This document shows positions 8,171-48,640 of a stretch of DNA of 64,000 nt, in pieces (the stretch's first letter is position 1; every line of letters starts with the position of its first letter). Position numbers and translations under genes: made by a program. The stretch is from NCBI GenBank assembly GCA_028714315.1, contig JAQTMN010000005.1:1-64000 (forward strand), in the 5' to 3' direction. The notes under the pieces are model-generated. The model ran no database searches, had not been told where the DNA came from, and was given only the letters and a program-made list of their open reading frames with translations. This DNA is from Sulfuricella sp. (GTDB lineage: Bacteria; Pseudomonadota; Gammaproteobacteria; Burkholderiales; Sulfuricellaceae).

Positions 8171-8261
8171 GGTGAGGGGTGAGGCGTGAGGGGTGAGGCG
8201 CAAGATCAAAAACAGCACAGCGGGAGTTTTTCCTTCTCACCCCTAACCCCTCACCCCTCCC
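8171..8261. repeat. Heptamer-period foldback: (GGTGAGG)x4 ... (CTCACCC)x3
   Basis: GGTGAGG GGTGAGG CGTGAGG GGTGAGG at 8171-8198; CTCACCC CTAACCC CTCACCC CTCCC at 8236-8261. Confidence 0.9.
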
Positions 8262-8272
8262 GGCTTCCGGTT

Positions 8273-9217
8273 TCATTTCCCCTCCGCATCCATCATTTGC
8301 TCGTGCCGTTCGACGAACTCGCGCGTGCTGTTGATCCCGCGCTTGTGCAGGATGTGGTTGCGCACCGCGACTTCCACCAGCACCGCGATGTTGCGGCCGG
8401 ATGCCACCGGGATGCGCACCTTGGGCACTTCCACGCCGAGGATGCTTTCGCTGAATTCCTCGATCTGGAGCCGATTTTGCGACGAGGTGGCGATATTGGC
8501 AAGCTTCTCCAGATGCACGATCAGCTTGAGGTTCTTTTTGGCCTTGACCGAAGTCTCGCCGAACAGGGTACGGATGTCCAGCACCCCAAGGCCGCGCACT
8601 TCCATGAAGTCCTGCAGCAGCGGCGGGCAGCGTCCTTCCACGCTATCGAGCGAAATCAGGTAGAAATCCACCACGTCGTCAGCGATCAGGCGGTGGCCGC
8701 GGGTGATCAGCTCCAGCGCCAGTTCGCTCTTGCCGATGCCAGACTCCCCGGTGAGCAGCACCCCCATCCCTTGCACTTCCAGGAACACCCCGTGGCGGGA
8801 GGTCGATTCGGCCAGCACCTGGGTAAGGTAGTGGTTGAGCACGTTCATCAGGTAGGGACTGGGCTGCGGCGAGGTGAACAGCGGCGTCTGGCCGCGGTTG
8901 GCGGCTTCGAGCAGCACTTCCGGCACCGGCTCGTTGTTGGCGACGATGATCAGCGCGAGCTCGGTGGAGAACAGGTTGCAGATCGCCTGGTCGAGGGAGT
9001 CGGCGGTGAGGCTGCGCAGGAAATCCATTTCTGCGCAGCCGAGCACCTGCACCCGGTTGGGATGGACGAAATTGAGGTGGCCAATCAGCGCCAGGGTGGG
9101 CTTTTGCACGATTTCGCCGGCGAGCTGGCGCACGCCGCCCTCGCGCCCGGCAACCCAGGCTAGGCCCAGCTTCTCGTGAGTTTCGTCGAATAATTGTTTG
9201 ACGCTGATTTGAGACAT
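8273..9217 (-). CDS. hprK: HPr(Ser) kinase/phosphorylase
   Basis: GVLLTGESGIGKSELALELITRGHRLIADDVVDF. Confidence 0.96.
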   Translation of the reverse strand: MSQISVKQLFDETHEKLGLAWVAGREGGVRQLAGEIVQKPTLALIGHLNFVHPNRVQVLGCAEMDFLRSLTADSLDQAICNLFSTELALIIVANNEPVPEVLLEAANRGQTPLFTSPQPSPYLMNVLNHYLTQVLAESTSRHGVFLEVQGMGVLLTGESGIGKSELALELITRGHRLIADDVVDFYLISLDSVEGRCPPLLQDFMEVRGLGVLDIRTLFGETSVKAKKNLKLIVHLEKLANIATSSQNRLQIEEFSESILGVEVPKVRIPVASGRNIAVLVEVAVRNHILHKRGINSTREFVERHEQMMDAEGK

Positions 9218-9230
9218 GTTTTAGGTCCGG

Positions 9231-9285
9231 GTAGGAGCGGCCTGCTGGCCGCGACGCGCTATCGCGGCCAGCAGGCCGCTCCTAC
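9231..9285. repeat. REPIN-like doublet, perfect 23-bp inverted arms GTAGGAGCGGCCTGCTGGCCGCG
   Basis: Arms 9231-9253 and 9263-9285; each arm is itself palindromic. Confidence 0.9.
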
Positions 9286-9293
9286 GAAGGATT

Positions 9294-9746
9294 TTAGCTC
9301 CATTCGACAAGCAAACGGTGAATTTCAGCCGGGTCGGCGCTGGCCTGCAGATTATCGCGCAAACGGCGGTCGCTGAACATTTGCGCCAGTTCGCCCAGAA
9401 TTTGCAGGTGCAGGTCGGTGGCCTGTTCGGGCACCAGCAGGACGAACAGCAGACCGACCGGCCGGCCGTCCGGCCCGTCGAAGGGAATCGGCGTCTTCAG
9501 TTTGACGAAAGCGCCGGTGGCTTCGCGCAGGCCCTTGATGCGTCCATGCGGAATGGCGATGCCCTGGCCCAGCCCGGTGGAGCCCAGCTTTTCACGGGCA
9601 GCCAGGCTGTCGAGCACTTTTTTGGGTGGAATCTGCTGGTTCGCTGCAAAAAGCTGGGCGACGGCTTCGAACAACTGGTCCTTGCCGACGGCGTCGAGAC
9701 CGCAGAGAACGTTGCCTGGGGGGAGAATTTTGGCGATGAGGCTCAT
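9294..9746 (-). CDS. ptsN: PTS IIA-like nitrogen regulatory protein
   Basis: LGSTGLGQGIAIPHGRIKGL, position between hprK and hpf. Confidence 0.93.
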   Translation of the reverse strand: MSLIAKILPPGNVLCGLDAVGKDQLFEAVAQLFAANQQIPPKKVLDSLAAREKLGSTGLGQGIAIPHGRIKGLREATGAFVKLKTPIPFDGPDGRPVGLLFVLLVPEQATDLHLQILGELAQMFSDRRLRDNLQASADPAEIHRLLVEWS

Positions 9747-9802
9747 TGTTTCAGCTTGAATACGGCGGAACCTGGCTAGATTCCGCCGTGCGGGAAGTTC
9801 TT

Positions 9803-10132
9803 CTATTCGGCGACGGCGGTCTGATGTTTGCCGCCGCTGCCGCGGGTCGGGCCGCCGTTCATTTCCTTGTGCTTGACGATCTGGCGGTCGAGCTTGTCGA
9901 CCAGGCTGTCGATGGCGGCGTACATGTCGGCGTCCTCGGACTTGACGAAAATATCCTTGCCGCTGACGTGAACGTTCACTTCGGCCTTCTGGACCAGTTT
10001 TTCGACGGTCAGGATCACGTTGACATCGATCACCTGATCGAAATGGCGGGTCACCCGGCTCAGTTTGTCGGTGACGTAATCGCGGATGGCGGGGGTGACT
10101 TCAACATGGTGGCCGGTTACGTTCAGGTTCAT
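9803..10132 (-). CDS. hpf: Ribosome hibernation promoting factor
   Basis: MNLNVTGHHVEVTPAIRDYVTDKLSRVTRHFDQVIDVNV. Confidence 0.93.
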   Translation of the reverse strand: MNLNVTGHHVEVTPAIRDYVTDKLSRVTRHFDQVIDVNVILTVEKLVQKAEVNVHVSGKDIFVKSEDADMYAAIDSLVDKLDRQIVKHKEMNGGPTRGSGGKHQTAVAE

Positions 10133-10154
10133 TTGTGACTCCTTTGGGTTGATG

Positions 10155-11588
10155 TTAGATGGACTTGCGCAAACTCACCGCGGCAATTTGCATGCCTTCC
10201 CGATACTTTGCCACAGTGCGGCGGGCAACGACAATGCCCTGTTTGGCCAGAATCTCGGCGAGCTGGCTGTCGGACAGCGGTTTCTGCGGATTTTCCGCTG
10301 CCACCAGCTGCTTGATCAGCGCCCGGATGGCGGTCGAGGAGCAGGCACCGCCCGCTTCCGTGGCGCAGGAACTGCCGAAAAAATACTTGAGCTCCAGCAC
10401 CCCGCGCGGGGTAAGCATGTACTTCTGCGTGGTGACGCGCGAAATGGTGGATTCATGCAGGCCGACCACCTCCGCAATCTCGCGCAGCACCAGCGGGCGC
10501 ATGGCGACTTCGCCATGCTCGAAGAATTGCCGCTGGCGCTCGACGATGGCCTGCGACACGCGCAGGATGGTGTCGAAGCGCTGCTGGATGTTCTTGATCA
10601 TCCACTTCGCTTCCTGCATCTGGCTCGACAGATACTGGCTGCCGCTGTCGCGGTTGCGCCGCAAAATGTCGGCATAAATGCGGTTGATGCGCAGCTTCGG
10701 GATGATTTCCTGGTTCAGGCTGGCGACCCAGCGCCCCTTCACTTTCTTCACCTCCACATCGTGCTGGATGTAGCGCGTGTCCACGTTGGCGAAAGCCGCG
10801 CCGGGGCGGGGGTTGAGCTGGACGATCAGCTGCTGGACGGCGCGCAGCTCGTCGTCGTCGCAGCGCAGCAATTTCTTCAGCTTGGCGAAATCGCGGGCAG
10901 CCAGCAGGGCCAGATGGTTCTTCGCAAGCGTGAGCGCTTGCTCCAGGTGAGGCGTTCCTCCAGGCAGGAGTTCCAGCTGCAGCACCAGGCATTCCGCCAG
11001 GTTGCGCGCACCGATGCCGGGCGGATCGAGATTCTGCAAGTGGCACAGCGCGGTATGCAGCTCGATCGGCTCTATTTCCAGTTCGGGCGGCAGCAACGCG
11101 GCGAGCTCATCCAGATCCTGGGTGAGATAGCCATCCTCATCGAGGGCATCGATCAACAGCGCGACGATCTTGCGGTCGTGGTCGGACAACTGCGTCAGCC
11201 CCAGCTGCCAATTGAGATGGCTGCGCAGATCGATCGGCTCGGCGCGAAGCGAGGCATAGTCGCTGTCTTCGTCCTCGTCGGGGTCGTGCGCGGTCCACGG
11301 GCTGTCCTGATCCCAGTCGTTCTCGGTCGGGGACGGCGCTTCCGCCGGCGCTTCGTCGGCTGCGCCGCTGGCGGAAGGTGGAGCCTCCGCCGTAAACTCG
11401 TCCGGCTTGGCCTCGCTCGCCTCGGCTTCCTCGCCGTCCGCCCGTTCGAGGAAGGGATTTTCCTGGGTAAACGCGTCCAGCTCCTGGCTCAATTCCAGCG
11501 TTGACAGCTGCAACAACCGGATCGATTGCTGCAGCTGGGGCGTCAGGGTCAGATGTTGTGAGAGCTTGAGTTGTAGGCTGTGCTTCAT
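10155..11588 (-). CDS. rpoN: RNA polymerase sigma-54 factor
   Basis: MKHSLQLKLSQHLTLTPQLQQSIRLLQLS; C-terminal ARRTVAKYREGM RpoN box. Confidence 0.97.
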   Translation of the reverse strand: MKHSLQLKLSQHLTLTPQLQQSIRLLQLSTLELSQELDAFTQENPFLERADGEEAEASEAKPDEFTAEAPPSASGAADEAPAEAPSPTENDWDQDSPWTAHDPDEDEDSDYASLRAEPIDLRSHLNWQLGLTQLSDHDRKIVALLIDALDEDGYLTQDLDELAALLPPELEIEPIELHTALCHLQNLDPPGIGARNLAECLVLQLELLPGGTPHLEQALTLAKNHLALLAARDFAKLKKLLRCDDDELRAVQQLIVQLNPRPGAAFANVDTRYIQHDVEVKKVKGRWVASLNQEIIPKLRINRIYADILRRNRDSGSQYLSSQMQEAKWMIKNIQQRFDTILRVSQAIVERQRQFFEHGEVAMRPLVLREIAEVVGLHESTISRVTTQKYMLTPRGVLELKYFFGSSCATEAGGACSSTAIRALIKQLVAAENPQKPLSDSQLAEILAKQGIVVARRTVAKYREGMQIAAVSLRKSI

Positions 11589-11597
11589 GTCTAAACG

Positions 11598-11664
11598 TGA
11601 AAGTCGCGAAGCGAAACTTCGTCCCACTCGCCCGCAGGCGGGAGAAGGCTAGGGGTGAGGGAAA
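11598..11664 (-). repeat. AGEG-family palindromic element, copy 2, in rpoN leader
   Basis: Minus strand CTTCTCCCGCCTGCGGGCGAGTGGGACGAAGTTTCGCTTCGCGACTTTCACG matches copy 1. Confidence 0.75.
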
Positions 11665-11778
11665 CGGTGATGGCGCCAGCGAGTTTCATTTTTCAGGAGG
11701 TGGTAATTCGCCATAACCGTTTGGTTACGGGAGGCTGTCCGCTCGAAGCCCGAGCCTTTCTCGCCTTTGCTGCCGGCG

Positions 11779-12501
11779 CTACATCCGGAAATGTTCTCCC
11801 AAATACACTTTTCTTACGCTTTCATTATAAACGATTTCATCCGGCTTTCCGCTGGCCAGCACTTCCCCGTCGTTGATAATGTAGGCGCGGTCGCAAATCC
11901 CCAGGGTTTCCCGCACGTTGTGGTCGGTGATCAGTACGCCGATACCCTGGTCGGTGAGGAAACGAATGATCTTCTGGATGTCCAGCACGGCGATCGGGTC
12001 CACCCCGGCGAAGGGCTCGTCAAGCAGAATGAAGCGCGGCTGGGTGGCCAGCGCACGGGCGATCTCCACCCGCCGCCGCTCGCCGCCCGACAGGGACAGC
12101 GCCGGGTTGTTGCGCAGGTGGCCGATGTGCAATTCGCGCAGCAGCTCTTCCAGGCGCTCCTCGACCCGTTCTGGCTCGAAGGCCTGTAGCTCCAGGATCG
12201 CCCGGATGTTCTCGGCCACGGTCAGCTTGCGGAAAATCGAGGCTTCCTGCGGCAAATAGCTCAAGCCCAGGCGCGAGCGGCGGTGGATCGGCAGATGGGA
12301 CAGCTCCGTGCCGTCAAGGCGGATGCTGCCGCCGTCGAGCGGCACCAGTCCGACCATCATGTAGAAGCTGGTGGTCTTGCCCGCGCCGTTCGGCCCGAGC
12401 AGCCCGACCACTTCGCCGCTGGAAACTTCCAGCGAAACGCTTTTCACCACCTGACGCGATTTGTAGCGCTTTTTCAGGCCTTGGACGTTGAGTTGACTCA
12501 T
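11779..12501 (-). CDS. lptB: LPS export ABC transporter ATP-binding protein
   Basis: [26 protein letters not shown]...[12 protein letters not shown]. Confidence 0.96.
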
Positions 12502-12518
12502 GGGATGGTCCTGATTAC

Positions 12519-12574
12519 CGAGTGCCAAGTCCCGAGCAGCTTGTTTTCTGCCCAGGACTTGGCACCCAGCACTT
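12519..12574. repeat. Heptamer-period foldback between lptB and lptA
   Basis: GAGTGCC AAGTCCC GAG / CCAGGAC TTGGCAC CCAGCAC. Confidence 0.7.
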
Positions 12575-12575
12575 T

Positions 12576-13187
12576 CTAGCGTTCTCCGGGATTGGCGATA
12601 TCTTCGGCGGGCTTGAGCTTGACCGGCGCGACGGGCGCGGACGCGGCACCCGTCTTTTTCGGCTGCATTACCGTGCGCACCCGGCCGCGGGGATTGCCGG
12701 GCGTCGCACTTTCCTTGCTGCCGACCACTTGAAAGAATTCGGTCTTGCCGTCGTAGGAGATGTAGTTGCCGCGCGCCTCGTCCTGGTTGCGCTTCAGGCG
12801 CGCCTGGCTGAACATCTGCATCAGGTCGTTTTTGCTGTCGTACTCGATGCGCAGGGCGTAGCCCTCGATATACTCGTCGATGCCTTCGCGCTTCTGCCGG
12901 AATGAGGCCGGGTTGCCGTAGGCCGTGCCGTGCTGGTAGCCCTCGGCGTCTTCCCGCACGACCAGCTTGTCGGCGCGGATTTCCAGCGTGCCCTGGGTCA
13001 GGATCACATTGCCCTGGTAAACGCTCTCTTTCTTGACGTCGTCCGACGTGGCGGTGTTCGACTCCAGGTTGATCGGCTTGTCCCGATCCGCCTTTTCCGC
13101 GTGCGCCGCGGGCGCGGCCACCAGTGCCAGCGTTGCCCACAGGCAGACGCGGAGGAGCGACAACAGATTAATGCTTAGGTTTCTCAT
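12576..13187 (-). CDS. lptA: LPS transport periplasmic protein LptA
   Basis: OstA-like fold; operon position. Confidence 0.92.
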
Positions 13188-13746
13188 AGCGGCCTTTGAC
13201 GCGCGAAAACAGTTTCATCACGTGGGTTTTGCTGTTCAATTCTAAACCAACCCCATCGATATTGGTATGCGCATCCCGGATGGTGACCGGCTTGTCCGAC
13301 AGGGCCAGGTCCCGTTCCGGAATGACATGGAGATAGCTGGTGGCGAGGGTCAGCGCGCTCCGGTCGCGGAAGGCCTCGCGCGTCACCAGCACGTTGCCGG
13401 TGAAATAGGCGTGTTCGCCGTCCTTCGAGATCAGGCCGCTGCTCGACTGGATATGCAGTGGCGCCTTGCCTTGCGCGAAGCGGGTGAAATGCGGGCGGTC
13501 GAGGTGGGTGGAATCGTCGTCAGGGTAATGCACCATCCTGACGGCGGACAGCGTATGCAGCGGCAGGCCGTCCGTTCCCATGCGGGTGGCGGTGAAATTT
13601 TCCACGGTATAGTCCGGATCGTGCCGGCTGCTGCCGTCGTTTTTCGGCGGCGGCGGCTGCACCGTACGGTCGAGCCAGAACGTCAGCATCGCCAGCAATG
13701 CCAGCAGGCCGGCGGGAAACCAGAGGGCCAAACGATCGCGCATCAT
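13168..13746 (-). CDS. lptC: LPS export protein LptC
   Basis: N-terminal TM anchor; DPDYTVENFTATRMGTDGLPLHTLSAVRMVHYPDDD; operon position. Confidence 0.9.
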   Translation of the reverse strand: MMRDRLALWFPAGLLALLAMLTFWLDRTVQPPPPKNDGSSRHDPDYTVENFTATRMGTDGLPLHTLSAVRMVHYPDDDSTHLDRPHFTRFAQGKAPLHIQSSSGLISKDGEHAYFTGNVLVTREAFRDRSALTLATSYLHVIPERDLALSDKPVTIRDAHTNIDGVGLELNSKTHVMKLFSRVKGRYEKPKH

Positions 13747-13845
13747 CGGGTCAGGACATTGCCCGAGGCAATCCGGATAAAGCGTGTGGGTCAGGCTTCA
13801 GCCTGACAGGTGCGACTGAAGCGCTCGGGGCAGCACCGACGGAAG

Positions 13846-14367
13846 TCATCTCAAATAAGGCGCCAGTTGGGCTTCGAAAGTTCCCTGCGCCTGCATGATC
13901 AGCTCGCAGATTTCGCGCACCGCGCCCTGGCCGCCCGCCAGCTGGCTGACGTAATGCGCATGCTGCTTGACCAGCGCCGGCGCCGCCGGCACGCACAGCG
14001 CCAGGCCGCAGCGGCGCATCACCGGCAGATCCACCACGTCGTCGCCCATGTAGGCGCATTCCGACGGTTCCAGGCCGGTCTTTTCCAGCAGGTCGGCGAA
14101 GGCCGCCAGCTTGTCTTCCGAGCCCTGGTAAAGATGGGTCACTCCCAGGTTGGCGGCGCGCAACGCAACCACCTGCGAGTTCCGCCCGGTGATGATCGCC
14201 AGTTCCACGCCCGAACGGTTCAGCATCTTCATGCCATGACCGTCAAGCGAGTTGAAAGCCTTGTATTCCTGGCCGCCGTCTGCCAGATAAAGGCTGCCGT
14301 CGGTCAATACGCCGTCCACGTCGAAAATGGCGAGCCGGATTTTTTTTGCGCGTTCGAAGGTATCCAT
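13846..14367 (-). CDS. kdsC: 3-deoxy-D-manno-octulosonate 8-phosphate phosphatase
   Basis: LAIFDVDGVLTDGSLYLADGGQEYKAFNSLDGHGMKML. Confidence 0.95.
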   Translation of the reverse strand: MDTFERAKKIRLAIFDVDGVLTDGSLYLADGGQEYKAFNSLDGHGMKMLNRSGVELAIITGRNSQVVALRAANLGVTHLYQGSEDKLAAFADLLEKTGLEPSECAYMGDDVVDLPVMRRCGLALCVPAAPALVKQHAHYVSQLAGGQGAVREICELIMQAQGTFEAQLAPYLR

Positions 14368-14376
14368 TGTCTTATC

Positions 14377-14401
14377 GTAGGTCGGGCACCCCGTGCCCGA
14401 C
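14377..14401. repeat. REP-like hairpin GTAG-GTCGGGCACCCCGTGCCCGAC
   Basis: 9-bp stem with 3-nt loop after a GTAG foot. Confidence 0.75.
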
Positions 14402-14414
14402 GATTTGCTTTTAT

Positions 14415-14588
14415 CCCAGATAATCCATTAGGACGCGAGATGATGGCGAGGCGTTTTGCGAGGCAGTTTCGTTGCTTGGGAGGAGTCCCATGGTTGTTCC
14501 ATGGGCGACGAGCAAGCGGCGAAAATGGCCGCAAAACGTCCGCCAGCACTCGCGTAGGCCCAAAGGGCCGCCTAATGGATTATCTGGG
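14415..14588. repeat. 174-bp long imperfect palindrome (MITE-like)
   Basis: 18-bp perfect terminal inverted repeats CCCAGATAATCCATTAGG / CCTAATGGATTATCTGGG plus nested internal complementarity. Confidence 0.85.
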
Positions 14589-14589
14589 T

Positions 14590-15579: not shown

Positions 15580-15637
15580 CCGCGCAAGTATACTAAACCC
15601 CATGGCCAGTTGCCTATTGCCCATTGCCTGACCGACC

Positions 15638-17608: not shown

Positions 17609-17629
17609 GAATAAACCCAAAAAAAGCGG

Positions 17630-17760
17630 TTAACCACGGAGGACACGGAGGTCACGGAGAAAAATCAAGACATCGCATAGAGCTTACGTTTCACCCATTG
17701 GGTGAGCGCGCTCGATATTTCCCGAAAGCTTTGGTTTTACTCCGTGTTCTCCGTGGTTCA
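17630..17760. repeat. Nonamer-period foldback CCACGGAGG ACACGGAGG TCACGGAGA ... CTCCGTGTTCTCCGTGG
   Basis: Arms 17630-17659 and 17740-17760. Confidence 0.85.
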
Positions 17761-17841
17761 AGTGAGGTTTTTAGGATAAATCGACGGACGTCCGGAGATG
17801 CCCGCCGAGGCCATGGTCATTGCCGGTTCAACGCCGACAAT

Positions 17842-20871: not shown

Positions 20872-20880
20872 GGGCAGCCG

Positions 20881-20956
20881 TCAGTGATCAGTAATCAGTA
20901 ATCAGTAAATCAGACCAGTCCAAAAACTGACGACTGAAGGCTGATGACTGATAACT
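20881..20956. repeat. Heptamer-period foldback TCAGTGA TCAGTAA TCAGTAA TCAGTAAA ... ACTGACG ACTGAAG GCTGATG ACTGATA
   Basis: Direct reading of both arms. Confidence 0.85.
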
Positions 20957-20961
20957 CACAA

Positions 20962-21820: not shown

Positions 21821-21883
21821 GGTGAGGCGGAAAAACGAGCGGCAGATTTGCTTTTCCTCACCCCTCCCGCCTCACTCCTCACC
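21821..21883. repeat. Heptamer array CCTCACC CCTCCCG CCTCACT CCTCACC with one complementary GGTGAGG
   Basis: 21821-21827 and 21856-21883. Confidence 0.75.
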
Positions 21884-23809: not shown

Positions 23810-24723
23810 AATTCTCGATTTTTCAATCCAGCCGCCAGGGCGGCCGCAAGTACAACCAGGACCGCCTGGCCTATTCCTACAGCCGCGACACGCTCCTGAT
23901 GGTGGTCGCCGACGGCATGGGCGGGCATTTCCACGGTGAAATCGCCTCGCAGATCGTCGTCCAGTTCCTGGTGGATAACTTCCAGAAACAGGCCACCCCC
24001 GCGCTGCAAGACCCGTTCCGCTTCCTGCTCGAGGCCATCGGCCAGGCCCACGAAGCGATCGGCGATTACGTCCTGGCGCACGGCCTGCGGGACCATCCCC
24101 GCACCACCTGCATCGCCTGCGTGGTGCAGGGCGGCAGCGCTTATTGGGCGCATGTCGGCGACACCCGCCTCTACCTGTTCCGCAACGGCAAGCTGGTCAT
24201 GCGCACGCGCGACCACTCTCTGGTGCAGCAGATGTTCGAGCGGGGTCAAATCAGCGAAGATCAAATGACCACGCACCCCGACCGCAACAAAATCTACAAC
24301 TGCCTCGGCGGGCCGATTCCGCCCGACATCGAATTGTCGCGCAAGACGCCGCTGCGCGAGGGGGATACCCTGCTGCTCTGTTCCGACGGGCTGTGGAGCC
24401 TGCTCTCGGCCAGCGAAATCGCCTCGATTCTCGACACCTACCCGATCACTACGGCGGTGCCCGAACTGCTCGACCATGCCGAACTGCGCGGCGGCGAGGA
24501 AGGCGACAACCTGAGCGCGATCGGCATGCGCTGGGGCGACGAGAGCGAAGTGTTCAACCCGCGCTCGATCTCCACCGCCACCATGCCGCTCGATTCCTTC
24601 ACCGTGGAACTCGACGCCTTCGACATGGCCCAAGGCAAGCACGGGGAAATGGAAGTGTCGGAAGCGGACATCGAACGCGCCATCGCCGAAATCCAAACCG
24701 CGATCCGAAAATACTCCAAGTGA
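23806..24723 (+). CDS. PP2C family protein phosphatase
   Basis: YNQDRLAYSYSRDTLLMVVADGMGGHFHGEIAS; GTGA overlap with kinase. Confidence 0.93.
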   Translation: MKFSIFQSSRQGGRKYNQDRLAYSYSRDTLLMVVADGMGGHFHGEIASQIVVQFLVDNFQKQATPALQDPFRFLLEAIGQAHEAIGDYVLAHGLRDHPRTTCIACVVQGGSAYWAHVGDTRLYLFRNGKLVMRTRDHSLVQQMFERGQISEDQMTTHPDRNKIYNCLGGPIPPDIELSRKTPLREGDTLLLCSDGLWSLLSASEIASILDTYPITTAVPELLDHAELRGGEEGDNLSAIGMRWGDESEVFNPRSISTATMPLDSFTVELDAFDMAQGKHGEMEVSEADIERAIAEIQTAIRKYSK

Positions 24724-24807
24724 GCCGGTAGCTTGTAGTCCGGTTGAGCGCAAAGCGCGCACTGCTTTTGCCACAAGCAACCCGCTACAAGCCACAAGCT
24801 AAAAGCT
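24723..24807. repeat. Heptamer-period foldback AGCCGGT AGCTTGT ... ACAAGCC ACAAGCT AAAAGCT
   Basis: Direct reading. Confidence 0.8.
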
Positions 24808-24842: not shown

Positions 24843-25562
24843 ATGCGGCCCAGCCAGCGCAATCCCGACCAGCTCCGCGATATCGCCATCACCCGCAATT
24901 ACACCAAACACGCCGAAGGCTCGGTATTGATCGAGTGCGGCCACACCAAGGTGATCTGCACCGCCAGCATCGACGAAAAAGTGCCGCCGTTCCTGCGCGG
25001 CAAGGGCCAGGGCTGGACCACCGCCGAATACGGCATGCTGCCCCGCTCCACCAATACCCGCATCGACCGCGAAGCCGCCCGCGGCAAGCAGACCGGCCGC
25101 ACCCAGGAAATCCAGCGCCTGATCGGCCGCTCCCTGCGCGCGGTGGTGGACCTGAAAGCGCTGGGCGAGCGCACCATCCAGATCGACTGCGACGTGATCC
25201 AGGCCGACGGCGGCACCCGCACCGCCGGCATTACCGGCGCCTATGTCGCGCTGCACGACGCCGTTTCGTTCCTGCTCAAGGAAGGCAAGCTGCAGACCTC
25301 GCCGCTGCGCGACTTCGTCGCCGCGGTCTCGGTCGGCGTCTACCAAGGCATGCCAGTGCTGGACCTCGACTACGCCGAGGATTCCGACTGCGACACCGAC
25401 ATGAATGTGGTGATGACCGGCAGCGGCGGCTTCGTCGAAATCCAGGGCACCGCGGAAGGCGCGCCGTTCTCGCGCAGCGAAATGGACGCCATGCTGAATC
25501 TGGCGCAAAGCGGAATTGCGCAGCTGGTTGCGAAGCAGAAAGCAGCGCTTGAGAGCTGGTAG
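24843..25562 (+). CDS. rph: Ribonuclease PH
   Basis: [42 protein letters not shown]. Confidence 0.96.
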
Positions 25563-25645
25563 CCAGTAGGCGGTAGCTGGTAGCAAAAACCGCCTGCTTC
25601 GCGGGCGGCAACCAGCTACAAGCTACCAGCCACAAGCTACCAGCT
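25554..25645. repeat. Heptamer-period foldback (AGCTGGT)x4 ... (ACCAGCT)x5
   Basis: AGCTGGT AGCCAGT AGGCGGT AGCTGGT (25554-25581); ACCAGCT ACAAGCT ACCAGCC ACAAGCT ACCAGCT (25611-25645). Confidence 0.93.
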
Positions 25646-26256: not shown

Positions 26257-26434
26257 GAGCGGCCTCCCGGCCGCGAACCAGCCTATCGGTCATGGCGAAT
26301 TGCCGTCCCGATCAAGAAACGGCAATTCGCCATGACCGATTCCCTCTCCCCTAACCCTCTCCCACAAGCGGGCGAGGGGGGCGAGGACTCGCTGCGCGAG
26401 TTTCGCTCTATAGCGGCCGGGAGGCCGCTCCTAC
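26253..26434. repeat. Nested composite: REPIN-like arms enclosing a 21-bp perfect inverted repeat and an AGEG element
   Basis: Outer arms 26253-26275 / 26413-26434; inner IR 26286-26306 / 26319-26339; AGEG copy 26341-26406. Confidence 0.85.
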
Positions 26435-28253: not shown

Positions 28254-28362
28254 GCCACAGAGAACACAGAGACGATGGGGGCTCCAATACCCAGTTATGG
28301 GTGGATGCAATAACACCGACAACCCATTTGTTTTTCTTTGTGCACTCTGTGTTCTCTGTGGC
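28254..28362. repeat. Nonamer-period foldback CCACAGAGA ACACAGAGA ... CACTCTGTG TTCTCTGTG GC
   Basis: Direct reading of arms 28254-28272 and 28338-28362. Confidence 0.85.
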
Positions 28363-32324: not shown

Positions 32325-32394
32325 GCCGCGAAAAGGCGCAAAAGTCACAAAAATAAAAGCTCGCTTTTTTGTGCTTTTTGCGCCTTTTTGCGGC
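32325..32394. repeat. Nonamer-period foldback CCGCGAAAA GGCGCAAAA GTCACAAAA ... complementary arm
   Basis: Direct reading. Confidence 0.8.
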
Positions 32395-38739: not shown

Positions 38740-38750
38740 GTGCCGATTTT

Positions 38751-38889: not shown

Positions 38890-38909
38890 ATTTTAATAGG
38901 AGCGCACGA

Positions 38910-39443: not shown

Positions 39444-39474
39444 ACCGGAACAAACTTTGACGAGGGAGAGCATC

Positions 39475-39702
39475 ATGCAAATCAGCGACATCCTCATACA
39501 CGTCGACGAAACGCTGGACACCGATCGGAGACAGGCGCTGGAGGAAAGGGTGCGCACATTGCCGGGCGTGCTCGCGCCGCGCTTCAATCCGGGGCGCGAC
39601 CACCTGCTCCTGGTGGCCTTCGATCCCGAGCGTACCCGGATTTCCGACCTGCTCGGCGAAGTCGTCGCGGCGGGCTACCGGGCGCAACTGGTCGGCGCAT
39701 GA
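39475..39702 (+). CDS. Small HMA-fold-like protein lacking CxxC
   Basis: ILIHVDETLDTDRRQALEERVRTLPGVLAPRFNPGRDHLLLVAFDPERT. Confidence 0.6.
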   Translation: MQISDILIHVDETLDTDRRQALEERVRTLPGVLAPRFNPGRDHLLLVAFDPERTRISDLLGEVVAAGYRAQLVGA

Positions 39703-39736
39703 ACTGACGCATCATCAATCACCAAGGAGAAAAAAC

Positions 39737-40357: not shown

Positions 40358-40358
40358 A

Positions 40359-40430
40359 CGTCATTCCCGCGAAAACGGGAAATCCATACGGCACTGAAAA
40401 TACTGGATTCCCGCCTTCGCGGGAATGACG
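40359..40430. repeat. dRS3-like pair TCATTCCCGCGAAAACGGGA / ATTCCCGCCTTCGCGGGAAT
   Basis: Inverted ATTCCC-N8-GGGAAT-type units; related unit at 51538-51594. Confidence 0.8.
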
Positions 40431-40454
40431 AAATCGGAATAAATCAGCGCATCC

Positions 40455-41261: not shown

Positions 41262-41376
41262 ATCGATCTCCAGGGAACAGGGAGACCGATTTTGCCGCCG
41301 GGCGCGGCGGCTTAGCCAATCGTTTTTTGCGATCGGCGCCATCAGGTGGCGCGATAGCGAGGCATCGGAGTCTGCG

Positions 41377-41497
41377 AAAAAACGACACCCCCAACCGCAA
41401 AGGCGCGAAGGCGCAAAGAAAACCCACGTGAAATCAAAACGATTTCCTTTGCGCCTTCGCGCCTTTGCGGTGGATTTTGAATTTTTTCACAACCTCT
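41377..41497 (-). repeat. Octamer-period foldback element, inverted copy flanking lysR (A)
   Basis: CGCAAAGG CGCGAAGG CGCAAAG ... CTTTGCG CCTTCGCG CCTTTGCG; reverse complement aligns to 42551-42693. Confidence 0.9.
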
Positions 41498-42381
41498 CAG
41501 CCCTCCCACACCTCGCACAGTACTTCGCGGAACGCCGCCATGACGGGCTCTTCCCGGCGTTGCGCCAGGCAGATGAAGTCGAGCCGCGTTTCCTCGCGCA
41601 GGCCGGGAATCAGGATCACGTCGCCGGCCTGCTCCGCCTTCAGCGCCTGTTCCTCGTGAAGCAGGCCGATGCCAGTGCCGGCGGCGATCAGGCTTTGCAC
41701 GGTGGCGTTGCGGTCGGCCTCGACGATCTTGCGCGGCGCGCCGCCGCGCCGCTGAAAAACCGCCTCCGCCAACCGCCCGCAGAAAGTCAGCGGCGGCATG
41801 CCGATCCACGGCAGCACGGCCAGCTCGTCCCATCCCGCCCGCTCCACCCGCTCGCGCCAGGCCGCCGGGGCGGCGAGGCGCAAAGCGAACTTCATCAGCT
41901 CGACGCGGGCCAGCGCGCCGGCTCGGGGTTCGTCGGAAAAAACCGTAAAACCGGCATCGAGACGGTCGTGCAGCACGTCCTCGATCACCGCGCCGGAAAA
42001 TCCGCTGCGCAGCTGGATGGTAACGTGGGGATGGCGTTCCGCCATGCGGGCGAGTATGGGGCCAAGGCGCAGCATTTCGGCGTCGCCGACGGTGCCGAGG
42101 CGCAAATTGCCGCTCACCGCGCCCTTGATGCGCCCGGCTTCGTGGATCAATTCCTGGCGCGCGGCCAGCACCTTCTCGGCGTAATCCAGCAAGCGCCGCC
42201 CGGCGGAGGTGAGGGTCATCCCCTTGGCGCCGCGTTCGAACAGCGGCAGGCCGAGTTCGTCCTCCAGCGCCTTGACATGGGCGCTGACCGCCGGCTGGCT
42301 CAGGCACAGCAATTCGGCGGCGCGGGTCAGGTGGGCTTCGCGCCCGACGGCGACGAAGGTGCGCAGATGATGGAGTTCCAC
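41497..42381 (-). CDS. LysR family transcriptional regulator (GTG start)
   Basis: ELHHLRTFVAVGREAHLTRAAELLCLSQPAVSAHVKALEDELGLPLFER. Confidence 0.94.
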   Translation of the reverse strand: MELHHLRTFVAVGREAHLTRAAELLCLSQPAVSAHVKALEDELGLPLFERGAKGMTLTSAGRRLLDYAEKVLAARQELIHEAGRIKGAVSGNLRLGTVGDAEMLRLGPILARMAERHPHVTIQLRSGFSGAVIEDVLHDRLDAGFTVFSDEPRAGALARVELMKFALRLAAPAAWRERVERAGWDELAVLPWIGMPPLTFCGRLAEAVFQRRGGAPRKIVEADRNATVQSLIAAGTGIGLLHEEQALKAEQAGDVILIPGLREETRLDFICLAQRREEPVMAAFREVLCEVWEG

Positions 42382-42550
42382 GGCATGGCGTCTTCTGGAG
42401 TTTTTTCCATCATCGCCGAAATACCCGAACGGAGCAATCGGCCGCGCTGATGGCGAGCATCCGCAAATGCGATTGGATGGAGGCGAATAGTGCCGGCAGA
42501 ATGAATGCCACACTTCAACCTGCCGCAGGAAAAACGCCATGAGAGCCCCG

Positions 42551-42693
42551 AGAGGTTGCGAAAACTTCAAAATCCACCGCAAAGGCGCGAAGGCGCAAAG
42601 CATACGCAAAGGAAATCATTTTGATTTTACATGGACTTTCTTTGCGATCCCTCGGCGCCTTCGCGCCTTTGCGGTGGGGGTGTCGTTTTTTTT
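42551..42693 (+). repeat. Octamer-period foldback element, inverted copy flanking lysR (B)
   Basis: Homologous to reverse complement of 41377-41497 with two short insertions. Confidence 0.9.
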
Positions 42694-43390
42694 AAAGGCC
42701 CTGAGAACCCATTTCGGCAAATTGCCCGCCGCCTTGCTGCTATTCGCCCTGGCGCTGTCCGCTCCCTTTGCCGCCGCCGAAACCGGCAACGGCCCCGCCA
42801 CCCTGCTGCAAATTGCCGGCGTGGAAGCCCGGCCGACGAGCCTGTCGGACAGCGTCGTCGTCATCATCGACGCTCAGCGCGAGTATGCCGACGGGCGGCT
42901 CCCCCTGGCGGACATGGACAGTGCGGTGCGCGAAACCGCGCGGCTGCTGGCGCTGGCAAGGCGGAACGGCACCCCGGTCATCCACATCGTCCACCAGGCC
43001 AGGCCCGGATCGGCATTGTTCGACCCCGCCGGGCCGTTCGTGGACGTCATTCCCGAGCTCGCACCCCAGGCGGGCGAAACAGTCATCGCCAAAACGCTGC
43101 CTAATGCCTTCGCCGGAACCGTGCTGGAAAAACGGCTCGCCCAGACAGGAAGGAAAAACCTGATCGTCGCCGGCTTCATGACCCACATGTGCGTGAGCGC
43201 GACGGTACGCGCAGCGCTCGATGTGGGCTACCGGACGACAGTGGTGGAAAGCGCGACCGCCACCCGCGACCTGCCCGACGGCGCGGGCGGCACGGTGCCC
43301 GCCACTATGGTGCAGCGGGCGGAAATCGCCGCGCTGCGCGACCGCTTCGCCGCGATCGTCGGCCATGCCGACGATTTGCCTGTGCGTTGA
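42680..43390 (+). CDS. Isochorismatase-family cysteine hydrolase with predicted signal peptide
   Basis: VVIIDAQREYADGRLPL; LIVAGFMTHMCVSATVRAALDVGY; leader LPAALLLFALALSAPFAAAE; GTG start proposed. Confidence 0.82.
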   Translation: MSFFLKALRTHFGKLPAALLLFALALSAPFAAAETGNGPATLLQIAGVEARPTSLSDSVVVIIDAQREYADGRLPLADMDSAVRETARLLALARRNGTPVIHIVHQARPGSALFDPAGPFVDVIPELAPQAGETVIAKTLPNAFAGTVLEKRLAQTGRKNLIVAGFMTHMCVSATVRAALDVGYRTTVVESATATRDLPDGAGGTVPATMVQRAEIAALRDRFAAIVGHADDLPVR

Positions 43391-43422
43391 TAAGCGCGTT
43401 ATGAATAACTCTTAAGTTGCGA

Positions 43423-43492
43423 TTAACCACGGGGCGCACGGGGAACAAGGGGGTAACTCGTGCACGTTTTTCCCCCGTGTCCCCCGTGGTAA
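43423..43492. repeat. Nonamer-period foldback CACGGGGCG CACGGGGAA CAAGGGGG ... CCCCCGTGT CCCCCGTGG
   Basis: Direct reading. Confidence 0.85.
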
Positions 43493-43515
43493 TTTTTACG
43501 ATGGAAAGGAACCTC

Positions 43516-43917
43516 ATGACCCCGCCATTCGACGACCCGGTAAAACAGGAAATCTGGGCCACGCTACGCGCCCTCAACGACGCCTGGACGCAAGGCCGCC
43601 CGGACGACCTCGCCCGCCATTTTCACCGCGACATGATCGCCATCACCGCCACCGACCGGCACCGCCTCGACGGTGGCGCCGCCTGCATCGCGGCCTGGAA
43701 AAAATTCGCCGAGGCAACCCGCGTCCATCGCTGGCGGGAAATCGACCCGGTCATCCACGTTTACGGCGATGCGGCGGTGGTCGCCTACGACTTCGACATG
43801 ACCTTCGATATGGGTGGCCAGGACATCCGCCTGGGTGGGCGGGACATGTTCTTTTTCGTGAAGGAAGAAGGCCGCTGGCTGGCGGTGGCGGACCAGTTCT
43901 CGCCGTATCCGGTTTAG
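43516..43917 (+). CDS. NTF2-like/SnoaL-type protein
   Basis: LNDAWTQGRPDDLARHFHRDMIAITATDRHRLDGGAACIAAWKKF. Confidence 0.8.
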   Translation: MTPPFDDPVKQEIWATLRALNDAWTQGRPDDLARHFHRDMIAITATDRHRLDGGAACIAAWKKFAEATRVHRWREIDPVIHVYGDAAVVAYDFDMTFDMGGQDIRLGGRDMFFFVKEEGRWLAVADQFSPYPV

Positions 43918-44073
43918 CTCGTAGCCCGGAATGCGGGGCGGTCTCGGCTCGTGAGCACAGCCCGGTATGCGAAGCTCCACCCTGGGCATATACTCGCCAA
44001 GCGACAGAACCCATTGAAATCACACCCCCTTTCCTCTAGCATTTCAAAATGAAATACGTTTGGAGATACGTCG

Positions 44074-44310
44074 ATGAACATGATATCCGTTCGCCTGCCG
44101 GACAAGCTGCTTGGTCAAGCGGACACCTTTGCCCGCCAAATGCATGTTTCGCGAGCCGAATATATCCGCCTGGCGCTGGAAACGATGAACCGGGAGATGG
44201 AAGCCGGAAAGCGCGGAGAGCGGCTTAAATCCTTGAGCCTGCGCTTGCGGGAAGAGAGCATGAAAGTCAATGCGGAACTGGATGGGGCCGATGACTTCAG
44301 CGCCCCTTGA
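44074..44310 (+). CDS. Ribbon-helix-helix antitoxin
   Basis: MNMISVRLPDKLLGQADTFARQMHVSRAEYIRLALE. Confidence 0.85.
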   Translation: MNMISVRLPDKLLGQADTFARQMHVSRAEYIRLALETMNREMEAGKRGERLKSLSLRLREESMKVNAELDGADDFSAP

Positions 44311-44647
44311 GCACGGCGCGGTCTATCTCGCCAACCTCAATCCAGGACGGGGCACGGAACCGGGCAAAATACGCCCCGTCCTGGTAGTGCAGCACCCCGC
44401 CCTGCTCGAAGCCGGCCATCCTTCCACCCTGGTCATCCCCCTCACCACAGCACTCGCGGACAACGCGGAACCCATGCGCCTGCGGCTACCCGCCCGCGAC
44501 AAGCTGGAACAGGATTCCGACTTGCTGGTGGACCAGTTGCGCGCCATCGACAATCGGCGGCTGATGGGCGAACCGTTGACCCTTTGCGGCGAAGGCTTCA
44601 TGGCGAGAGTTTATGCGGCGGTGGCGGAGGTAATGGGGTTTTGTTGA
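44291..44647 (+). CDS. PemK/MazF-type toxin
   Basis: LEHGAVYLANLNPGRGTEPGKIRPVLVVQHPALL. Confidence 0.9.
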   Translation: MTSAPLEHGAVYLANLNPGRGTEPGKIRPVLVVQHPALLEAGHPSTLVIPLTTALADNAEPMRLRLPARDKLEQDSDLLVDQLRAIDNRRLMGEPLTLCGEGFMARVYAAVAEVMGFC

Positions 44648-44766
44648 TTTGGGAATGGCAAAGGCTGTTTTCTCCGAAAGGCAAAAACACCGCAGCCAGC
44701 ATGGAGCATAGCGAAATGCGGGACGTCGCGGCACGGGAAGCAATCTCTAATATTTGAAACTGTCAG

Positions 44767-45666
44767 CTAAGAGTGCGGCGGATGAGGGTTTACTTTGCGG
44801 TCATACAAAGAAAACCGACGCTCAATATGCTGCCCCACAAGGTGAATAAACATCGCGGGAAGAGCCCACAGGGCGAACAGTACTCCAAGTGCCGCTAGTT
44901 GGTACGATGCATTTTCTGCCTTGTACGCCACAAGGAGCAGATAGCAAAGCCCTGCAAGAGTAAGTTCCAACACAAAGATAAATGCCGAATTGCCGTGCTC
45001 TCGCATGTGTCGATAAGTATCAATAAGCTCTCGCCTCCAAACAGACCTTTTCCTCCACTCCGCTTCTTCGTCAAATTTGTCACCGGTCTCTTGATCCTCC
45101 TGACCCTTTGCCGATTGCTTCGTGATCGACGATTCTTCTACCACACCCCGGCGCCTAGATAGAGCGAATGTGTATGCAAAGACTTTGGAAACCGGATCGG
45201 TTAGCCCATTAAAGGCAACTTCTCTCAAGGCTAGATTTATGCGATAGAGCTGAAGACCCACAAACACAAGAGCTATGGCAAATGGAACTACAGGATTGAC
45301 TCTGGAGCTTTCAATAGTTACCACGCTCAGGAGGAATATGACGAATGCAATGAGCAACGTACTGACATATCCGTCCCATACGCAATGATGCCAAGCACCT
45401 CGTTCAAAATCGACTACTCGTGTGACGTGAAAACCCAGGATTGGATAAGAGGATATATAACAAAACAGATTTCCATATAAGAACAACAACGCTAAGGTCG
45501 GTGTTTGTAGCCCTTGATTCCCAACTTCGAGCAGGAGAAGATTCCTGACGCAGGGATGTCCAGCCGCAACTAACCAATTCACTATCACAGCACCTGCAAT
45601 TGATGGCATCAGATAACGGACGAGGTAGTTTTCCCACCACCGATAAGCACCATTTTCGCCGTTCAT
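44767..45666 (-). CDS. Orphan multi-TM membrane protein in low-GC segment
   Basis: Multiple hydrophobic helices around a charged cytoplasmic-like stretch; base composition visibly AT-richer than flanks. Confidence 0.65.
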   Translation of the reverse strand: MNGENGAYRWWENYLVRYLMPSIAGAVIVNWLVAAGHPCVRNLLLLEVGNQGLQTPTLALLFLYGNLFCYISSYPILGFHVTRVVDFERGAWHHCVWDGYVSTLLIAFVIFLLSVVTIESSRVNPVVPFAIALVFVGLQLYRINLALREVAFNGLTDPVSKVFAYTFALSRRRGVVEESSITKQSAKGQEDQETGDKFDEEAEWRKRSVWRRELIDTYRHMREHGNSAFIFVLELTLAGLCYLLLVAYKAENASYQLAALGVLFALWALPAMFIHLVGQHIERRFSLYDRKVNPHPPHS

Positions 45667-46040
45667 ACAACTGCCCCTTTTGAGAGAAAGCCCATATTTT
45701 TTATAAAAAAACGGTTTTGCGTTCCACTCGTGTCGGTCTCCCAACTCGTTAATGCGACCGCATCCGCAATTTTTACGACAGCATATAACCCGAAAATACT
45801 TGTGTCCATGGATACACACGCAAAGCCCACGTTGACATCCCTTCAAACCCCCGCTAAAGTCCACCCATGGCCACCACCAACCACATCCATTCCACCCCCC
45901 TCACCACCAACCGACTGTGGCTGCGGAGCACCTCCCCCTGCCGCGGCGCTGCATTCTCGATTCAACTGTAACAAGGCAACCGCGGGTCTGACCGCGATTG
46001 CTTCCGCTCTACGACCCGCGCATTTGGCGAAAGGGTCTTC

Positions 46041-46961
46041 ATGACAAGCACAACACACAGCATTTCAATCAACCGCAGCGCGGCGCTCGGCGTGGGCTTT
46101 GCCTTGCTGGCGGCGGTCGGGTTTTCGGCCAAGGCGATCCTGGTCAAGCTGGCTTATGCCGATGCGGTGGATGCGGTCACGCTGCTGGCTTTGCGCATGG
46201 CATTTTCGGTGCCGTTTTTCGTGCTGGCCGCGCTGTGGACGAACGGAAACAAGCAAGCGCGGTTGGAGAGGCGGGATTGGCTGGCGGTGCTGGGGCTGGG
46301 ACTGGTCGGCTATTACCTGTCCAGTTTTCTCGATTTTCTCGGGCTCCAGTTCATCTCGGCCGGGCTGGAACGGCTGATCCTGTTCCTTTATCCCACCATG
46401 GTGGTGATCCTGTCGGCGGCGATTTCGCGCCGCGCCGTCGGGCGTGGGGAAATTGCCGCGCTGGTGTTGAGCTACGCCGGGATCGCGCTGGTTTTCACGC
46501 ACGACGTGAGCGTGAGCCGGGGCGGCATCGCGCTCGGGGCGGCGCTGGTTTTCGCCAGCACCTTGTCCTATTCGGTTTACCTGGTCGGCGCCGGCCACGC
46601 CATCGCCCGCATCGGCGCAACCCGCTTTACCGCCTACGCCATGATCGTGGCCAGCGCCGCCAGCCTGATCCAGTTCGGCGCAACGCACCCGCTCGCGGCG
46701 TTGAACCTTCCGCCGCGGGTCTACGGCCTGGGCATGGCGATGGCGCTGTTTTCCACGGTGCTGCCGGTGTTTCTGCTCTCGGCCGGGATACGCCGCATCG
46801 GGTCCGGACATACCTCGCTGATCGGGTCGATCGGGCCGGTGGCAACGATCTACCTGGCGCACGTTTTCCTAGGCGAGGAGGTGTCGATGCTGCAAATCGC
46901 CGGCTCGGCGCTAGTGCTGGCGGGGGTGTTGACGATCAGCATTAGCCGGAGAAAGGGATGA
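46041..46961 (+). CDS. EamA/DMT family transporter
   Basis: GVGFALLAAVGFSAKAILVKLAYADAVDAVTLLALRM. Confidence 0.92.
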   Translation: MTSTTHSISINRSAALGVGFALLAAVGFSAKAILVKLAYADAVDAVTLLALRMAFSVPFFVLAALWTNGNKQARLERRDWLAVLGLGLVGYYLSSFLDFLGLQFISAGLERLILFLYPTMVVILSAAISRRAVGRGEIAALVLSYAGIALVFTHDVSVSRGGIALGAALVFASTLSYSVYLVGAGHAIARIGATRFTAYAMIVASAASLIQFGATHPLAALNLPPRVYGLGMAMALFSTVLPVFLLSAGIRRIGSGHTSLIGSIGPVATIYLAHVFLGEEVSMLQIAGSALVLAGVLTISISRRKG

Positions 46962-47004
46962 AAGTGAAATAAATTCGCGGCCCTCCCCAAAGGGGGCGAG
47001 GGAG

Positions 47005-47700
47005 TTATTTACCGGTTTTCCTGAACACGATATCCCACACCCCGTGCCCGAGCCTGATCCCGCGCTGCTCGAACTTGGTGAGCGGGCGGTAGTCCGGGCG
47101 TGGCGCGTAATCGGCGGCGGTATTGGAAAGGCTGGGTTCGGCGGAGAGCACGGCGAGGATGTGCTCGGCGTATTCCTGCCAGTCGGTGGCGGCGTGGAGA
47201 TAGCCGCCGGGCTTGAGTCTACCGCACAACAGGGCGACCAGCGCGGGCTGGATCAGGCGGCGCTTGTTGTGCTTTTTCTTGTGCCAGGGGTCGGGGAAGA
47301 AAATATGCACGCCGTCGAGGCTGGCCGGGACGAGCATGTGCTTGAGCACTTCCACCGCGTCGTGCTGCATCACGCGCAGGTTGGTCAGGTGCGCGGCCTC
47401 GATCTGGTTGAGCAGGCTGCCGACGCCGGGGCCGTGGACTTCGATGCCGAGGTAGTCGTTTTCGGGGTGCTCGGCCGCGATCCTGGCGGTACTGTCGCCC
47501 ATGCCGAAGCCGATTTCGAGGATTTTCGGCGCGGCGCGGCCGAAGGTCTGGTCGAGATCGAGCGGCGCTTCCCGGTAGGGGATGCCCCAGCGCGGCAGCA
47601 GGGTTTCCAGCGCGCGGGTCTGGGCGACGGACATGCGGCCCTGGCGCAGGACGAAGCTGCGGATGGGGCGGCGCTTTTCTGGGTTGACGGTATCGTTCAT
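47005..47700 (-). CDS. trmB: tRNA (guanine(46)-N(7))-methyltransferase
   Basis: [46 protein letters not shown]. Confidence 0.96.
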
Positions 47701-47739
47701 ACGAGGGTGTGGGTGTGCACGGCGCACCTTGCGAGAATC

Positions 47740-47790
47740 GTGCGAATGAATTCGCACCTACATTTGTAGGGCCGAATTCATTCGGCCTAC
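47740..47790. repeat. REP-like pair: GTGCGAATGAATTCGCACCTACA and TGTAGGGCCGAATTCATTCGGCCTAC
   Basis: First half identical to an arm at 6781-6838; second half a compensated variant. Confidence 0.85.
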
Positions 47791-48572
47791 GGCTTGCCGA
47801 TCAAACCCGTCGTCGGCGAGCTCGGGCTGGCGGAATAGAGCTTCTTCGGCATCCGTCCGGCCAAAAAGGCTTCGCGCCCGGCTTCCACCGCCTTCCTCAT
47901 GGCCGAGGCCATCAGCACCGGGTTCTGCGCGCCGGCGATGGCGGTATTCATCAGCACGCCGTCGCAACCGAGTTCCATGGCGATGGCGGCGTCGGACGCG
48001 GTGCCCACGCCGGCATCGACGATCACCGGCACCTTGGCGTTGTCGATGATGATTTGCAGGTTCCACGGGTTGAGGATGCCCATGCCGGAGCCGATCAGGC
48101 TGGCGAGCGGCATCACCGCGACGCAGCCGATTTCTTCCAGCTGCTTGGCGATGATCGGGTCGTCGGAAGTGTAGACCATCACCTTGAAGCCATCCTTGAC
48201 CAGCACGTCGGCGGCTTTCAGGGTTTCCACCATGTTCGGGTAGAGCGTCTTCGGGTCGCCCAGCACTTCCAGCTTGACCAGGTCGTGGCCATCCAGCAGC
48301 TCGCGCGCCAGGCGCAAAGTACGGATCGCATCGTCGGCGCTGTAGCAGCCGGCGGTGTTGGGCAGGTAGGTGTATTGCGACGGCGGCAGCGCGTCGAGCA
48401 GGCTGGGCTCGCCCGCGGTCTGGCCGATGTTGGTGCGGCGGATCGCCACGGTCACGATCTGCGCGCCGCTGGCTTCCACCGCGCGGCGGGTCTCGTCGAA
48501 ATCCTTGTACTTGCCGGTGCCGACCAGCAGGCGCGAGGAATAGGGCTTGCCCGCGATGATGAGATTGTCCAT
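47787..48572 (-). CDS. thiG: Thiazole synthase
   Basis: [32 protein letters not shown]. Confidence 0.97.
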
Positions 48573-48585
48573 TTTTTTCCAGTAA

Positions 48586-48640
48586 GGAGTGAAGAGTCAG
48601 GGGTGAGGAGCAAGTGCGGGGTGGGCGTCACTCCTCACGG
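48586..48640. repeat. Heptamer array between thiG and thiS with short complementary arm
   Basis: GGAGTGA AGAGTCA GGGGTGA GGAGCAA ... TCACTCCTCACGG. Confidence 0.75.

Follow-up and report, generated by a model that had tools for sequence, protein, structure and literature searches.

Short tandem repeats with a heptameric step have been noted for decades in separate bacterial groups (cyanobacteria, Beggiatoaceae, Xanthomonas, Geobacter) and have received separate explanations. The present analysis concerns intergenic foldbacks composed of inverted arrays of short tandem units in a 64-kb stretch of DNA (the window), i.e., the first 64 kb of contig C5 (JAQTMN010000005.1) of the Sulfuricella sp. 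assembly GCA_028714315.1, together with their counterparts in other genomes. An earlier note on this DNA knew of no described mechanism for a system of this kind. Paired opposite-strand arrays of 7–9-nt units had, however, been catalogued in 2009 in Geobacter metallireducens, where the two arrays of a pair lie at variable distance from each other (classes 1–3), have units of 8 (GTTGCTYN), 8–9 (TCTCCGTS[Y]) and 7 nt (MTYCTGA), and are presumed to be IHF/HU sites (Aklujkar et al. 2009, PMC2700814). The paired opposite-strand design is common to both systems, and TCTCCGTS[Y] is close to the CACGGAG unit found here. In contrast, the available part of that report covers one genome and mentions neither target duplications, a junction rule or unit replacement, nor occurrence across phyla and in phages.

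Direct TAACTGA repeats were described from Beggiatoaceae, Cyanobacteria and Bacteroidetes, and horizontal transfer was suggested; most of them directly precede start codons, one case only is 'indirect', and secondary structure is not predicted for them (MacGregor 2015, PMC4679880). TAACTGA is the reverse complement of TCAGTTA (TCAGTNN family, see below) and resembles the elements studied here in its intergenic location, heptamer step and patchy distribution across phyla. The latter are, however, inverted pairs beginning at stop codons rather than direct repeats near start codons. GGGNATC (GGGAATC) heptamers of Xanthomonas and Nostoc, some of them inverted pairs, reside between aligned genes and more rarely between divergent ones, and 83 % are positionally kept between two species (PMC4692102; Rehm et al. 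2015). Heptamer arrays, occasional inverted pairs and scarcity between divergent genes are shared features, whereas the G-quadruplex reading, the single unit family and the lack of unit swaps in place set the GGGNATC repeats apart. The tRNA-Leu intron of Nostoc and other cyanobacteria contains a heptanucleotide hairpin (P6b), and short tandemly repeated repetitive (STRR) sequences are likewise known from cyanobacteria (PMC3488679). Degenerate heptamers folding back, two sequence classes and variable copy number are again similar, but P6b is located within a group I intron and is no dispersed junction element. As in STRR and TAACTGA repeats, tandem 7-nt units between genes are shared across phyla; direct repeats upstream of starts without foldback are not what is found here. 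Among open-licence papers, none was found to report unit exchange at fixed junctions, a rule placing inverted pairs at stop codons, or the phage pattern.

The evidence presented here joins these separately studied groups by one architecture with many units, a junction rule, unit turnover in place and phage operons. We judge it evenly balanced whether the foldbacks represent two kinds of dispersed palindromic element with one outward design, the heptamers being mobile junction elements that burst within lineages by means of a putative machinery. For the heptamers, the observations comprise bursts of a single unit, junctions empty in some species and filled in others, unit replacement, decay, and presence across phyla and in phages.

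The source genome is a 2.92-Mb draft (148 contigs, 85 % complete), and genome statistics cover 42 % of it (1.24 Mb, taken in stretches). Genes were called with a simple home-made hexamer model (88 % coding), on which gene starts also rest; those which we take to be hprK, rapZ, rpoZ and spoT were named by recognition rather than by database search. Comparisons between species used one genome per species, the best sister genome, G007, being ~90 % identical and collinear with most of the window.

Period and anatomy of the foldbacks

Autocorrelation of 708 intergenes (133 kb; segment cut-off at least 12/14 identity; dinucleotide shuffles as control) revealed 57 segments at lag 7 (0.7 ± 0.8 in shuffles), 19 at lag 8 (0.8) and 52 at lag 9 (0.7). 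Multiples of 7 were also raised (46 versus 0 at lag 14; 31 versus 0.2 at lag 21) and the remaining lags yielded 0–8 segments each; across the 1.24 Mb, intergenic DNA resembles itself at no lags other than 7, 8, 9 and multiples of these. An equal length of coding DNA contained 0, 1 and 6 segments at lags 7, 8 and 9, respectively. The clear excess that the earlier note had expected over shuffled sequence is thus present at all three lags; for the window alone, z amounts to 8.5 at lag 7, 3.2 at lag 9 and 1.5 at lag 8 (3 segments versus 0.1). Intergenes contained 249 ungapped foldbacks, shuffled sequence 4 and coding DNA 8, and those with internal periodicity had a lag of 7 (28), 8 (7), 9 (17), 10 (5) or any other (3).

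The catalogued heptamer families are TCAGTNN, TAGCTNG and TGAGGNG, and those with longer units are CACGGRGNN and CACAGAGNN (9 nt), CGCRAAGR (8 nt) and the CGCRAAAAGG type (9–10 nt). In 35 of 52 arms with period 7, the two most variable registers are adjacent (chance 1/3; unit sequence ignored). Since variation concentrates in two neighbouring positions, the heptamer unit comprises a core of 5 nt and a spacer of 2 nt; the nonamer correspondingly consists of a 7-nt core plus 2 nt, and the octamer has no spacer. Spacers facing each other in 115 TCAGTNN foldbacks, picked without regard to spacer, match in 25.5 % of cases versus 23.7 ± 1.9 % with units permuted within arms. Accordingly, the core is common to both arms, but neither is an ordered copy of the other, and mutual copying of arms via template switching was rejected as the main route. 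Arm co-evolution as proposed earlier does not extend to this fine scale, facing spacer dinucleotides pairing no better than permuted ones and several orthologous copies being decayed. Spacers are more alike within an element than between elements. The TCAGT and TAGCT families have a GC-rich mini-hairpin of the loop in common more frequently than expected (9 observed, 0.9 expected), and one heptamer element of the TAGCTNG family sits inside the loop of a 9/10-mer GCCGCGAAAAGGCGC element (L021:10220–10343). At L057:7012, a repetitive extragenic palindromic (REP) sequence of the GTAG type is nested inside another element.

The 14 loci of the window that had been proposed as periodic foldbacks are as follows (no strand assigned; z, RNA folding relative to shuffles):

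8171–8261, 7-mer foldback GGTGAGG/CCTCACC at the hprK–rapZ junction, z −4.6
12519–12574, foldback of the decayed heptamer class, a plain hairpin in the source genome, z −3.4
15599–15630, short TTGCCYA heptamer array, one arm only, no foldback, z −0.3
17616–17775, 9-mer miniature inverted-repeat transposable element (MITE), CACGGAGNN arms, ends CCCAAAAAAA...TTTTTAGG, target duplication ATAAA, z −7.3
20881–20956, 7-mer foldback TCAGTNN/NNACTGA at the rpoZ–spoT junction, z −4.5
21821–21883, 7-mer foldback GGTGAGGCGG / CCTCACTCCTCACC, z −2.7
24723–24807, 7-mer foldback of the TAGCTNG family, partly decayed, complementary heptamer arms visible, z −1.2
25554–25645, 7-mer foldback of the TAGCTNG family, z −7.0
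28254–28362, 9-mer foldback CACAGAGAA, MITE family of 17616–17775, ends less clear, z −6.1
32325–32394, 9/10-mer foldback GCCGCGAAAAGGCGCAAAAG, absent in G007, z −6.7
41377–41497, 8-mer foldback CGCAAAGGCGCGAAGG, z −10.4
42551–42693, 8-mer foldback CGCAAAGG, absent in G007, z −9.4
43423–43492, 9-mer foldback CACGGGG, absent in G007, z −3.8
48586–48640, weak heptamer foldback of the GGAGTGA family, present in G007, z −0.9

Twelve of these fit the proposed design well; the locus at 15603 has no foldback and that at 48586 is weak. The units described earlier as 8 or 9 nt long at six loci also include 10-nt units (GCGAAAAGG family). RNA folding ranges from z −2.7 to −10.4 at 11 of the 14 loci, and an Rfam search of the window retrieved a tRNA gene (RF00005, 48930–49000) only and no structured-RNA family at the foldbacks. 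The G007 orthologue of 12519–12574 is a clear CTGAGTC heptamer array, and G007 has inherited the element at 25554–25645, the loop being conserved and the spacers altered. The MITE at 17616–17775 is not present in G007, and the intergene of 41377–41497 holds there a CACAGAGAA 9-mer element in place of the 8-mer. The foldback at 42551–42693 represents an inverted copy of 41377–41497, a flank of ~35–40 nt being common to both.

Junctions, turnover and spread of the heptamer elements

At co-directional junctions, the median distance is 2 nt from the upstream stop codon to the beginning of the heptamer element (at most 15 nt in 18 out of 21) and 20 nt from its end to the following start; only 2 out of 28 elements reside between divergent genes. 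Without its element, a junction measures a median of 24 nt, compared to a median of 159 nt for the junctions that length-random insertion would hit.

At two junctions, the units differ from species to species. The hprK–rapZ junction (window 8164–8272) harbours GGTGAGG, AGTGAGA (G007), CTAGAGG-type, GATGAGT or GGTAATG-type units, a lone decayed arm, or nothing; in G002, G005, G008, G009 and most more distant relatives it comprises 0–10 nt or is otherwise free of arrays. The variants at rpoZ–spoT (window 20872–20961) are TCAGTAA, CTGAGTNC, TCAGCNN, GTGAGGG, GGATGAA, or nothing. With arms and junctions excised by hand from six related species, arms of the same species match with a mean of 12.8 versus 7.1 across species at hprK–rapZ (3 of 720 permutations) and of 13.7 versus 5.5 at rpoZ–spoT (2 of 720 permutations). 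Both arms therefore change in concert, by whole elements or arrays, and pairing is lost in old copies. In this respect the earlier proposal of a constant period, diverging sequence and jointly changing arms is borne out, as arms at both junctions match within species only. The TCAGT pattern occurs 71 times in the source genome, 5 times in G007, 3 times in G003 and not in the remaining members of the genus, which argues for a recent burst in one lineage. Between G004 and G011, ~94 % identical over aligned DNA with little overlap, two junctions carry different units or lack them.

Surveys of other genomes for TCAGT cover this one unit. In public genomes, at least 115 stretches from at least ten phyla were found to contain a TCAGTNN foldback of three units; among the matches listed are Planctomycetota, Chloroflexota, Acidobacteriota, Bacteroidota, Cyanobacteria, Verrucomicrobiota, Desulfobacterota, Nitrospirota, Chlorobiota, Alphaproteobacteria and Bacillota. 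It was not found in 397 other genomes sampled evenly from the phylum of the source genome. Seven of 80 TCAGT loci from public genomes are situated in ribosomal protein operons, and successive junctions of one such operon from an Acidobacteriaceae member (L228:431–7509) display GGTCGTT, TAGCTNT, GTTCGYC, AGCTACT and TCAGTNN. TCAGTNN-type foldbacks also occur in structural operons of phage contigs (L339, L320, L324, L347 and L360; IMG/VR 3300025409_000011, 3300044824_000335 and relatives), whose genes for tape measure, tail assembly and Mu-like protease indicate tailed phages. In L324, 10 of 11 junctions hold a heptamer foldback, as do 9 of 13 and 8 of ~15 in other tailed-phage contigs. Phage pairs compared for short-term evolution were mostly identical contigs, and no clean heptamer insertion was seen among them.

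Nonamer elements as miniature transposons

The CACRGRG nonamer elements are miniature transposons (MITEs) of about 110–190 bp. Their termini CCTNAAAA...TTTTNAGG lie outside the arrays. Thirty-six copies were found in ~2 Mb from two genomes, and the elements combine dispersal and conserved inverted termini with a lack of coding capacity. Outer flanks agree at a width of exactly 5 bp (58 % identity versus 25–37 % at other widths; 3 of 2000 shuffles), and five elements display perfect 5-bp duplications (ATAAA, TTAAA, TTGAT and twice ATTAT). Such an element comprises inverted arrays (7-nt core plus 2-nt spacer) inside CCTNAAAA termini and generates an AT-rich 5-bp duplication upon insertion. Since the duplications are 5 bp long and AT-rich, a parent of the IS1380 type may be guessed; DDE_Tnp_1_4, the one family searched for as parent transposase, is absent in G000, G004 and G011 and represented by fragments in G007. 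The families with 8- and 10-nt units probably resemble the nonamer elements.

CACRGRG elements share with bacterial MITEs the short length, lack of coding capacity, dispersal, inverted termini and 5-bp target duplication, but differ in that their inverted ends run on into tandem 9-mer arrays; the heptamer class does not fit the MITE pattern. The single paired 7-mer/9-mer system envisaged earlier thus falls into two, target duplications being seen for the CACRGRG 9-mers and none for the heptamers. Single-arm arrays of CACRGAG nonamers were noticed directly upstream of start codons in L394, L382, L439 and related IMG/VR phage contigs, where they are present or absent between related phages; their GGAG could act as ribosome binding site.

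Explanations for the heptamer elements

A heptamer element consists of two inverted arrays of 5 + 2-nt units around a short loop, beginning a few nt past a stop codon. The arrays may serve a mobilising machinery as binding sites on DNA or RNA; it would recognise the core at each 7-nt step and depend on the inverted arrangement. Operon junctions would be where insertions land or survive, because no gene or promoter is broken there. It is possible, if doubtful, that one sequence-agnostic machinery across bacterial phyla and phages installs or maintains strict 7-nt inverted arrays right after stop codons, the 5-nt core being swapped wholesale (in all repeats and both arms) between species and even between junctions of one operon. 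Several results weigh against mobile junction elements. No width or offset outside the arms of 116 elements stands out as a target duplication, near-identical recent copies were not found, and filled junctions look replaced rather than merely interrupted. In phage operons almost all junctions are occupied, a regularity beyond what would be expected of plain selfish insertion. Gene families recurring beside foreign TCAGT copies include no recombinase and are mostly ribosomal and housekeeping genes, and no transposase is linked to the heptamers, the REP tyrosine transposase being absent from heptamer-rich G004.

The stop-codon position and the phage operons make selection for a gene-end hairpin a serious rival, albeit a rather unlikely one. 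The foldbacks would then act as hairpins in RNA or DNA that protect transcript ends, cause attenuation or insulate the genes of an operon from each other, with selected architecture and free sequence. That elements abut stop codons, are scarce between divergent genes, reside in ribosomal operons and at nearly all junctions of phage structural operons, fold stably, match in their arms within each species and differ in unit along one operon would all be consistent with this. Close relatives, however, have neither the element nor a substitute hairpin at the same junctions, orthologous arms decay, facing spacers are not selected to pair, and the fixed 7-nt step is left unexplained.

Distinctly less probable is a by-product of replication, i.e., slippage with a 7-nt preference combined with template switching that perfects palindromes. 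A polymerase footprint was proposed as the basis of 7-nt slippage (Mrazek 2007, as cited in PMC4679880 and PMC4692102). Slippage would agree with a period of 7 whatever the sequence, a varying repeat number and the likeness of spacers within elements, but spacers copied by template switching would keep their order, contrary to what is observed, and the 9-mer elements with target duplications are not accounted for. Pure slippage is made less likely by units shared between unlinked loci: dozens of junctions in one genome share a unit that most relatives lack, and the unit recurs across phyla.

We consider it very improbable that the paired arrays are nucleoid-protein (IHF/HU-like) sites as proposed for Geobacter metallireducens, which has the same paired opposite-strand design of 7–9-nt tandem arrays and one class nearly equal to the nonamer found here (TCTCCGTS[Y]). 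In the Geobacter paper (PMC2700814), that proposal is a sequence-based prediction, and the free divergence of the core between sister species would not be expected of nucleoid protein sites.

Equally remote are REP elements or REP doublets forming hairpins (REPINs) moved by REP-associated tyrosine transposases (RAYTs): seven Y1 transposase genes are present in the source genome, one beside GTAG-type palindromes, but none of the seven RAYT-like loci adjoins heptamer or nonamer arrays, and the arms are tandem arrays rather than a single palindrome of 20–40 nt with a GTAG or CGTC tag. This origin was rejected, as heptamer foldbacks are carried by two RAYT-free genomes, namely G004 (99 % complete, 2 contigs), which lacks PF01797 genes yet has 9 periodic foldbacks in 180 kb, 8 of them heptamer, and G017, which lacks these transposase genes but has TCAGT foldbacks.

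If a machinery stands behind the heptamers, they would belong to a widespread mobile or gene-end system without known enzyme; if selection does, they would represent an operon gene-end signal overlooked by annotation. Phage contigs and culturable hosts (Calothrix, Granulicella, Chthoniobacter) make both readings testable.

Other dispersed repeats were encountered besides the periodic foldbacks. A GTAGGTGCGAATTCATTCGCAC palindrome, REP-like with GTAG tag, is located at 6708–6887 of the window, its place being taken by nested 8-mer and 9-mer elements in the corresponding intergene of G007. A separate palindrome of ~113 bp (CCCCTCTCCCGC...GCGGGAGAAGGG) has several similar copies in the source genome (L041:16542, L053:2405, L064:9340, L064:13098 and L067:7793). 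Further repeats of ~70–165 bp (window 11597–11724, 26278–26404, 60877–60952 and 61004–61168) match elsewhere in the sister genome (G007 C15), and one pair of them is oppositely oriented within the window.

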